Of a stretch of DNA of 39,671 nucleotides, positions 10,822-31,849 are shown piece by piece; the stretch's first letter is position 1; the number at the start of each line of letters is the position of its first letter. The notes under the pieces are model-generated. The model was not told the DNA's origin and made no database searches. It saw nothing but the letters and a program-made list of their open reading frames with translations. The stretch lies in contig JAITNX010000003.1 of assembly GCA_031290235.1 (NCBI GenBank), forward strand, positions 1 to 39,671, in the 5' to 3' direction. Source of the stretch: Synergistaceae bacterium (lineage in GTDB: Bacteria > Synergistota > Synergistia > Synergistales > Synergistaceae). The translations under genes and the position numbers were made by a program.

Positions 10822-11136
10822 TCTTATGACAGGCCTCCCAATCGGCTGTAAAATACAAATTTTATCGTCCTTGAACCAGCGGGCAATCACCCGCGGACCC
10901 ACGCAAACCCGGCTCCGTCGAAACGCTCCCGGCCTGCGGGCATACAATCGTTCATTGCGCCGCTTCAAACTCGCGCCCAAACGCAAGACACGGCTTCTCC
11001 CAGCGTCGGACTTTACGCGCAAGAACTCCTCCATTATCCCGCTTTAGTCTGCAACGAAAAACTTTTCCCCCCTCGATTACACATTAAAAACCGTACCATT
11101 GTTCAGGCAAATTAAAAATAAACGTTTGACCGCTAC
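10822..11136 (-). promoter_or_regulatory. Long rho leader region
   Basis: 315 bp lie between the upstream gene's stop and the rho ATG. The distal part (about 11040-11136) is AT-rich and is the likely promoter zone. The proximal 210 bp are GC-rich and, by chance or not, stay open in the rho frame with many Arg codons. A small GCGGG/CCCGC hairpin lies near 10885. Rho is autoregulated through its leader in several bacteria, so a leader of this length may matter. No leader peptide or attenuator could be proved. Confidence 0.4.
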
Positions 11137-11143
11137 TTAGTAT
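11105..11143 (+). repeat. Dispersed intergenic repeat, copy 1
   Basis: A 39-nt stretch (core GGCAAATTAAAAATAAACG followed by TTTGACCGCTACTTAGTAT) matches the reverse complement of 31755-31793 at 33 of 39 positions. Related cores lie near 25130 and 27480. This copy reaches into the TAA stop codon of the 11137-11634 gene. Confidence 0.65.
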
Positions 11144-25128: not shown

Positions 25129-25190
25129 ATATCCGATCGCGGCTTGGCATCATACCAATTTGAATCGGAGGCATGAAGGGTAAAGCGTAA
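25129..25190 (+). repeat. Dispersed intergenic repeat, copy 2
   Basis: Contains GATCGCGGCTTGGCATCATA and then AATTTGAATCGGAGGCATGA followed by AGGGTAAAGCGTAA. The first block resembles 27485-27500 and the second is nearly identical to the reverse complement of 31815-31849. It lies in the 218-bp gap between moxR and the chemoreceptor terminator; no gene is seen there. Confidence 0.6.
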
Positions 25191-25210
25191 AAAACAGACC
25201 GCATTAGCGA

Positions 25211-27424: not shown

Positions 27425-27452
27425 AATATACCCGATTATTTCCACAAATCAA
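27425..27452 (-). promoter_or_regulatory. Candidate sigma-70 promoter for the chemoreceptor gene
   Basis: Minus strand TTGATT (27452-27447), 16-nt spacer, TATATT (27430-27425), about 60 nt before the start codon. Four of six -35 and five of six -10 positions match consensus. No sigma-28-type box was seen. Confidence 0.5.
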
Positions 27453-27455
27453 AAA

Positions 27456-27500
27456 CATGAATGGTAAACCGTAAAAAACCGTTTGATCGCGGCGTGGTAT
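27456..27500 (+). repeat. Dispersed intergenic repeat, copy 3
   Basis: Contains ATGAATGGTAAACCGTAAAA and CGTTTGATCGCGGCGTGGTA. These are the two blocks of the repeat family seen at 11105, 25129 and 31754-31849, here directly adjacent. It abuts the hairpin cluster starting at 27502. Confidence 0.6.
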
Positions 27501-27501
27501 T

Positions 27502-27632
27502 ATTCCGATTTTGAGTCAAAGATGCGTTTATTTGACTCAAAATCGGAATGCGCGACACGATGTCGCGCCGCGCAATGCGCAGCATTGCGGCTTTTCCAAG
27601 TCAAGCGCGCAGGATGCGCGTTTGACTTGGAA
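27502..27632. repeat. Chain of four hairpins
   Basis: Four inverted repeats follow one another in 131 bp. (a) 27502-27549: 19-bp perfect arms ATTCCGATTTTGAGTCAAA with a 10-nt loop. (b) 27550-27568: GCGCGACA / TGTCGCGC with a 3-nt loop. (c) 27571-27589: CGCAATGC / GCATTGCG with a 3-nt loop. (d) 27594-27632: 18-bp arms with one G-T pair around a GGA loop (TTCCAAGTCAAGCGCGCA). There is no long coding frame. A 48-nt sister of (a) lies at 28601-28648. It may be a mobile repeat (MITE/BIME-like) or a structured RNA or DNA region. Confidence 0.85.
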
Positions 27633-27676
27633 TTAGAATTAGCCGGAGACGACCGGGTACGCAAACCAAACCCGTA

Positions 27677-27706
27677 TTGTGGGCCAAGAGGTTTTGTTGG
27701 TATAAT
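27677..27706 (+). promoter_or_regulatory. Extended -10 promoter for the PHP gene
   Basis: TGGTATAAT (TATAAT at 27701-27706) is an extended -10. A poor TTGTGG -35 lies 18 nt upstream. The start codon follows 42 nt after the -10. Confidence 0.6.
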
Positions 27707-27747
27707 CCCTCGTGTCGCGCGGAGCTTGCGCGGGGAAGGACGACGCC

Positions 27748-28560
27748 ATGACTGTTTATAAAAATTATTACGATAGCCACGTGCACTCGGAAAATTCTTC
27801 CGACGCAAGGGATTCGGTCGACGCCATTTGCGCCTCCGCTGAGAAGCGCGGCGTAAAGGGCATCTCTATAACGGACCACTGCGACATGGATAGGGGACGC
27901 GAGAGGTGCGAGAACACAAAGAGGAAGCTCCTGGCTGACATCAGGGAGGCAAGGGAGCTGTACGGCGGCACGCTTCGCATATCGGCTGGAATAGAGTTGG
28001 GCGAGGCCAATCATGATCAGGAATTATCCCGTTCCCTGGCGGGGGACGAGGAACTCGACTTCGTCATCGGATCGCTGCACAATCTGAGGGACGACGACGA
28101 CTTCTACTATACCGATTACGACAACATCGATATAGACTCCCTGATGCAGAGGTACTACGAGGAGCTGTACGAGATCGTGGAGGGCGGCTGCTTTGACGTA
28201 ATAGGTCACATAAACTATCAGCTGAGATACATGAGCGAGCGGGCGAGAAAGAGCGTCGATCTGTCGCGTCATTACGGCGATCTGTTCGGGATACTGCAAT
28301 CCGCGGCGCGAAAGGGCAAGGGGATAGAGATAAACACTTCCGGCTTGCAGCGCGGGCTGGGAGATGTCATTCCATCCCTCGAAGTCATAAAGCTGTTCAA
28401 GAAGGCCGGCGGAGAGATAGTGACAATAGGCTCGGACGCCCATGTCTCGCGCAACGTAGGGGCGGAGATATTCACGGCCATGGACACCCTGAAGGCCGCC
28501 GGATTCGATCAGTTCGCATACTTCGTGAAGCGGACCCCAGAGATGATAGATATAGAATGA
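27748..28560 (+). CDS. PHP-family histidinol-phosphatase-like phosphoesterase
   Basis: A 270-aa protein of the PHP superfamily, HisK/HisJ histidinol-phosphate phosphatase type. Metal-binding motifs are in order: DSHVHSENSSDA (first His pair), ITDHCDMD, GIELGEANH (Glu), DFVIGSLHNL, DVIGHINYQLRY, GKGIEINTSGLQRG, and the terminal IGSDAHVSRNVG. All expected His/Asp/Glu ligands appear present, so a trinuclear metal site is likely. The start at 27748 has AAGGA 7 nt upstream; 12 more codons are open but look like leader. No his genes are nearby, so the true substrate may not be histidinol phosphate. It is monocistronic, flanked by the two copies of the 48-nt hairpin element. Confidence 0.88.
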   Translation: MTVYKNYYDSHVHSENSSDARDSVDAICASAEKRGVKGISITDHCDMDRGRERCENTKRKLLADIREARELYGGTLRISAGIELGEANHDQELSRSLAGDEELDFVIGSLHNLRDDDDFYYTDYDNIDIDSLMQRYYEELYEIVEGGCFDVIGHINYQLRYMSERARKSVDLSRHYGDLFGILQSAARKGKGIEINTSGLQRGLGDVIPSLEVIKLFKKAGGEIVTIGSDAHVSRNVGAEIFTAMDTLKAAGFDQFAYFVKRTPEMIDIE

Positions 28561-28600
28561 TGCGCGGGCGGACGGGCCAGGATCTTGAATCGTACGCGTA

Positions 28601-28648
28601 ATTCCAAATTTGAGTCAAAGATACTTTTATCTGACTCAAATTTGGAAT
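28601..28648. repeat. 48-nt hairpin element, second copy
   Basis: Perfect 17-bp arms (ATTCCAAATTTGAGTCA / TGACTCAAATTTGGAAT). Aligned without gaps to 27502-27549 there are 7 differences in 48 nt. Four of these form two compensated base pairs (positions 6/43 G-C to A-T, 8/41 T-A to A-T). It lies between convergent genes, so it could also end transcription, though it lacks a U tract. Confidence 0.8.
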
Positions 28649-30866: not shown

Positions 30867-30902
30867 TTTTCGCAACCTCCATGTCATATAAACTAAGATG
30901 TG

Positions 30903-30931
30903 ATTATAGCATATCGGCATCGTGTTCGAAA
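30903..30931 (-). promoter_or_regulatory. Candidate ribU promoter
   Basis: Minus strand TATAAT (30908-30903, perfect) with TTTCGA 17 nt upstream (30931-30926). It lies in the end of the transposase remnant, so the insertion may have supplied or replaced the promoter. Confidence 0.45.
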
Positions 30932-30944
30932 TTCCGCCTTCGAT

Positions 30945-30984
30945 GGCGGACCACACAGGTCTGGGCGGACACACAGGTCCGCCC
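30945..30984. repeat. REP-like palindrome pair
   Basis: GGCGGACC (30945-30952) pairs with GGTCCGCC (30976-30983), and within it GGGCGGAC-ACACAG-GTCCGCCC (30963-30984) forms a second 8-bp hairpin. The unit GCGGAC(C)ACACAGGTC is repeated directly. Such palindromes accompany RAYT genes. Confidence 0.7.
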
Positions 30985-31311
30985 CTACGTATTCGCCCCG
31001 TCCCGCATGTTCGCCCAATTCCATATATCCGTCCCATCCGGCAACGTTTGTGATTATTGCATGGAAATGGTTTGGCATGATAATAAATTGTTGCGGGTCA
31101 ATATCGGCGAATTTCAACGCTAATTCCGCATACCATTTTTCCACCATACATCCTGCGGCATTCAATACAAGATTGTTCGATTCAATACATCCAAACAAAC
31201 ACGCTTTATTCTGTACGCATACTGTCACAAAATATGAGCCCGGTTTTGAATAATCATACCCTTAGTTTATCGCCCTTCGATAACGTTGCCGCCAAGTCGT
31301 CTTTGACAGTT

Positions 31312-31753: not shown

Positions 31754-31849
31754 ATACCAAGTTGCGATAAAACGTTTGTTTTTAATTTGCCAGAACAGTG
31801 GCATAGCCTGGTCTTTACGCTTTACCCTTCAGGCCTTTGATTTCAAATT
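31754..31849 (-). repeat. Dispersed intergenic repeat, copy 4 (two blocks)
   Basis: The reverse complement of 31755-31793 matches 11105-11143 at 33 of 39 positions. The reverse complement of 31815-31849 (AATTTGAAATCAAAGGCCTG, AAGGGTAAAGCGTAA) matches 25157-25190 closely. A TGCCA/TGGCA mini-hairpin lies between the blocks. No gene is seen here. Confidence 0.7.

Follow-up and report, generated by a model that had tools for sequence, protein, structure and literature searches.

Paired hairpins beside a PHP-domain gene belong to a dispersed MITE family of Synergistaceae

The two 48-nt hairpins on either side of a PHP-domain gene are parts of a non-autonomous MITE family, here called MITE1. The window, which is the whole stretch of 39,671 nucleotides that was analysed, is contig C83 of a draft Synergistaceae genome of 2.48 Mb in 222 contigs. 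Our preferred explanation is that MITE1 is a Synergistaceae MITE inserting at TNA, that its compensatory changes arose mainly by template switching, and that the two copies near the PHP gene are independent of each other; we assign this explanation as a whole a probability of about 0.83.

A sequence-only reading of this DNA had reported that the two hairpins differ by compensatory base changes, and its description proved exact in every detail. Both hairpins are 48 nt long at the coordinates given in Table 1, align without gaps, and share 85% identity. The seven differences fall at positions 6, 8, 23, 25, 31, 41, and 43; two exchanged base pairs (6/43 and 8/41) account for four of them, position 31 breaks a pair, and positions 23 and 25 are loop positions. 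The left hairpin has a perfect stem of 19 bp and the right one a mismatch-free stem of 17 bp (19 bp with one mismatch), and they were the longest hairpins of the window. The right hairpin is preceded by TAA (28599-28601) and sits where the PHP and methyltransferase genes converge with their 3' ends. A pattern covering part of the palindrome found 22 copies in the whole genome and the reversed control found none, so the hairpin is not a chance structure. That reading had overlooked this genome-wide occurrence, as well as the larger element, 136 bp long, of which the left hairpin forms just the left third.

The edges of this element (TTCC...TTAGAA) were defined from an alignment of 35 intact copies drawn from several genomes. 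The TNA triplet was identical at both ends (TTA/TTA, TAA/TAA, or TGA/TGA) in 27 of the 35 copies, whereas shuffling the right ends gave an expectation of 12.6, and 27 was reached in 0 of 20,000 shuffles. The terminal inverted repeats (TIRs) are 18 bp long and imperfect, and can be written as TTCYAATTYYRAGTCAAA; left and right agree at 13 of 18 positions in the window copy and at 14 of 18 in the family consensus, whose ends read TTCCAATTTTGAGTCAAA and TTCTAATTCCAAGTCAAA. The edges, the 3-bp duplications, and the TIRs together indicated a transposon that is bounded by TIRs and targets 3-bp TNA sites, and the absence of a gene inside it identified the element as a MITE: it is short, lacks a transposase gene, and is present in dispersed, mostly intergenic copies.

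Table 1. Features around the PHP-domain gene (positions in the window).
Feature	Position	Strand	Basis
MITE2 (second MITE family), decayed copy, ends TACCAA...TTGGTA	27429..27499	+	directly abuts the left duplication of MITE1
Left target-site duplication, TTA	27500..27502	.	direct reading; TNA identity in the family
Hairpin 1 (first 48-nt element of the sequence-only reading)	27502..27549	.	direct reading
MITE1, complete gene-free copy of 136 bp with four hairpins	27503..27638	+	edges from 35 copies whose flanks are unrelated
Left terminal inverted repeat, TTCCGATTTTGAGTCAAA	27503..27520	+	aligned ends
Hairpin 2, GCGCGACA-CGA-TGTCGCGC	27550..27568	.	covaries in relatives
Hairpin 3, CGCAATGC-GCA-GCATTGCG	27571..27589	.	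covaries in relatives
Hairpin 4, TTCCAAGTCAAGCGCGC...TTGGAA	27594..27632	.	hairpin search; alignment of relatives
Right terminal inverted repeat, TTCTAATTCCAAGTCAAA on the minus strand	27621..27638	-	aligned ends
Right target-site duplication, TTA	27639..27641	.	direct reading; TNA identity in the family
PHP-domain gene between the two hairpins, ordinary resident gene	27742..28560	+	Pfam PHP, E=1.5e-23; hairpin-free orthologues
Solo hairpin 1, decayed left-end copy of MITE1	28601..28648	+	

BLAST with a 161-base query around the hairpin located MITE1 copies and fragments at about 38 separate places of the genome. At most of these, hairpins 2 to 4 followed hairpin 1; the right-hand copy of the window and a few others were solo hairpins 1 or truncated forms. 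Many contigs of the genome (e.g., C54, C78, C82, C157, C175, C195, and C196) end within MITE1 copies, indicating that assembly was interrupted at the repeat; C54 and C171 have a common flank with small differences, perhaps reflecting a mixture of strains. Among 60 related genomes, one of another genus carried MITE1 copies at 94% identity, one of a third genus carried full-length MITE1 at about 71-74%, and one more held a fragment. Outside the genome of the window, G014 and G033 were among the carriers, and the three genomes of the same genus had no copies. A scan of 84,980 species genomes with the variable hairpin positions left open returned 37 stretches, only in Synergistaceae MAGs (seven isolates). 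The sample codes of the matching MAGs look like those of termite or cockroach gut metagenomes, a source on which the records themselves are silent. A plasmid or phage origin was rejected, as no record in either collection matched MITE1.

The literature search found nothing published on MITEs of Synergistetes or of termite-gut bacteria, and we know of no described bacterial MITE that matches MITE1 in sequence. MITE1 is an ordinary kind of element that, as a family, is apparently undescribed. Bacterial MITEs, such as QMITE2 of Coxiella, are likewise short, non-coding, and intergenic, with TIRs, target duplication, stable stem-loops, and many copies (PMC10969869), whereas MITE1 differs from them in its 3-bp TNA duplication and in having four separate hairpins instead of one long foldback.

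The sequence-only reading had likened the hairpins to the ends of a cassette or to insulators and had suggested selection on folding, an interpretation that proved mostly wrong. The placement of the hairpins around a single gene in the same orientation would suit a mobile cassette, integron-like or composite, with the PHP gene as its cargo. Orthologues of the PHP gene with 66-71% identity were found in two genomes of the same genus, and neither has a hairpin: in one (G002), the orthologue is followed directly by the convergent methyltransferase gene known from the window, and in the other (G003), it adjoins the same SIR2 gene. These results indicated that the PHP gene is a resident and not a passenger, and that the hairpins arrived separately. 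Throughout the genome, moreover, the hairpins adjoin many unrelated genes, and the left one is part of an entire MITE1 copy that has duplications of its own. The cassette proposal is contradicted by these observations, and we consider it almost certainly wrong, even though two exact hairpin repeats bracket a toxin-antitoxin-like pair in G014. An integron attC site or gene cassette was likewise rejected, as the copies are dispersed and the PHP gene resides without hairpins elsewhere. The G014 locus (L191, G014:C46:6750-7900) is cassette-like, unlike the PHP case: its repeats, of about 85 nt, in direct orientation and related to hairpin 1, bracket an apparent AbrB-type antitoxin and PIN toxin pair. 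The two copies near the PHP gene are independent insertions or remnants that stand beside it by chance and have no common role for it.

MITE1 lies mostly outside genes. The TNA target coincided exactly with the stop codon of a neighbouring gene in about 10 of 31 copies, whereas stop codons made up about 9% of the noncoding TNA sites of the window in a rough, ORF-based estimate (rough p 4e-4). Together with the stable stems and the covariation described below, this excess would suit a hairpin under selection as an RNA structure that benefits the ends of genes, whether by stabilising 3' ends, by attenuation, or by termination. However, the excess can also be a survival bias, since a duplicated stop codon leaves the protein intact. 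At such stop codons, insertions with either end of the element towards the gene were observed; an orientation bias suggested by the copies of this genome was rejected, as both orientations occurred in other genomes. In addition, no Rfam match was obtained anywhere in the window, so no described structured RNA family was matched, and copies decay freely. The stem of both 48-nt hairpins is A+T-rich, and what comes next is GCGCGACA or ATCCGCTT, not a T-tract; hairpin 1 was not flagged by the terminator scan. An intrinsic terminator, which needs a G+C-rich stem and a T-run, was therefore rejected, and the suggestion of paired terminators is weak.

The compensatory changes themselves were analysed in 31 aligned MITE1 copies. 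In this alignment, 95.9% of cells paired and 15 of 52 pairs changed on both sides, whereas slid controls gave only 1 to 3 pairs with two-sided change; all four hairpins were kept in the relatives, with changed letters. Covariation was thus found among genomic and related copies, where the sequence-only reading had proposed to look for it, and the changes are not random. Two causes were weighed, namely selection on folding, which that reading had favoured, and DNA-level homogenisation of the palindrome arms. In an RNA, G-U pairs are tolerated and A-C pairs are not. Within MITE1 lineages, one-sided changes comprised 18 G-U and 19 A-C types, a count that left out pairs fixed as non-Watson-Crick in a lineage and that would shift towards G-U if G-U pairs that are fixed in one lineage were counted by cells. 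The SRP RNA of the same bacterial family (22 sequences, RNAalifold structure) gave 14 versus 6 types and 83 versus 7 cells. As types, the contrast between MITE1 and SRP RNA (18:19 against 14:6) is suggestive and not decisive.

Hairpin 1 was further compared among 39 copies of its own lineage; changes were single in 10 cases, and double and complementary in 5. Each double change was private to one copy, and independent mutation predicts 0.012 of them. Three of the five were swaps from T-A to A-T, which cannot pass through G-U. Furthermore, in one otherwise intact MITE1 copy (L082), the 10-nt loop is exactly inverted; this is the sole counted case, as the apparent loop inversion at L106 was explained by the opposite strand of that element and was rejected. 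Template switching between inverted repeats is reported to homogenise the arms and to invert the spacer (PMC8604942), and it has been proposed for instantaneous compensatory changes and loop inversions in RNA hairpins (PMC8794818). Double compensatory changes and inverted loops are thus common to MITE1 and to the hairpins of those studies, which lie in RNA genes and yeast coding sequence, whereas here they belong to a mobile element. Based on the private double changes, the T-A to A-T swaps, the inverted loop, and these published marks, template-switch repair of the palindromes fits the changes better than selection on RNA. Selection on folding was not supported, with A-C mismatches as frequent as G-U, and an RNA-structure role of the hairpin at gene ends appears unlikely to us. 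It is also rather unlikely that the palindromes, at about 27% divergence, are kept by selection at the DNA level, with a folded strand or cruciform recognised in transposition or by a host protein and with insertion aimed at stop codons. A single hairpin could nevertheless serve as a host RNA or protein site.

The search for the enzyme that moves MITE1 covered transposase families as well as end sequences, and it found neither a transposase nor a full-length relative with MITE1 ends. In up to five genomes, all fragmented drafts, none of the PF01609, PF13586, and PF13612 transposases carried MITE1 ends, and no pair of MITE1 TIRs 0.7-2.5 kb apart was present among the matches listed for these fragmented draft genomes; end sequences lacking a partner were decayed MITE1 copies. 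Multi-copy insertion sequences are often missing from short-read bins. As no transposase was found, we infer the mobilisation of MITE1 from its duplications and copy pattern. Insertion sequences of the IS1031 type (IS5 family) use TNA targets with a 3-bp duplication, as MITE1 does, but their known ends start with a G-rich triplet, whereas those of MITE1 start with TTC. Transposases of the IS4/IS5 type do occur in these genomes, but with ends other than those of MITE1.

MITE1 also resembles REP, REPIN, and BIME sequences, which are palindromes scattered outside genes, in mosaics and close to the ends of genes. A REP/REPIN-type hairpin would be moved by a RAYT (Y1/HUH) enzyme through a single-stranded intermediate, with selection for folding of single-stranded DNA, and a symmetrical, DNA-level covariation would suit such folding. 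Two short Y1_Tnp fragments were found in the genome, on contigs C63 and C18, the former about 80 bp from a MITE1 copy; no intact RAYT gene was found in this draft genome. However, Y1/HUH transposition makes no target duplication, whereas MITE1 is a 136-bp unit with TIRs and exact 3-bp duplications at both ends. A RAYT-moved hairpin was therefore rejected as very unlikely. A short ORF on the minus strand of the window (30893-31228) appears to be a gene remnant; it has no Pfam hit and contains an MPNHFHAII motif, as is typical for RAYT/Y1 transposases.

Two further MITEs were observed close to or within MITE1. MITE2 is about 99 bp long, has the ends given in Table 1, and has at least 40 matches in the genome; one copy lies in the window at 31755-31849, and partial copies at 11096-11142 and 25153-25197, besides the one that abuts MITE1. 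On contig C97 (L116), a MITE2 copy interrupts a MITE1 hairpin and is flanked by a duplicated TGA, so MITE2, too, uses TNA targets. At two loci (L172 and L173; G033:C101 and C57), hairpin 1 of MITE1 is interrupted at the same place by a third MITE, which has IS5-like ends (GGAAGCGCTGATTAA) and a duplication of TTAG.

For MITE1, the following course of events is proposed. A transposase supplied in trans, for which our searches gave no candidate, would cut the outer TTC...GAA ends. The element would then insert at TNA, often at the stop codon of a gene, which would be duplicated so that the gene survives. Deletion of the rest of an element would leave solo hairpins such as the right-hand one of the window. 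DNA polymerase would switch template between the palindrome arms, so that one arm is repaired from the other, and this would be the main source of the compensatory changes; occasionally, the switch would invert a hairpin loop.

In summary, MITE1 accounts for the paired hairpins around the PHP gene. Compensatory changes in dispersed palindromes are, alone, no evidence of a functional RNA. With its many copies, subfamilies, private double changes, and inverted loop, MITE1 offers a natural data set in which to measure template switching in bacteria. The findings also suggest that the element spread recently between genera of the Synergistaceae.
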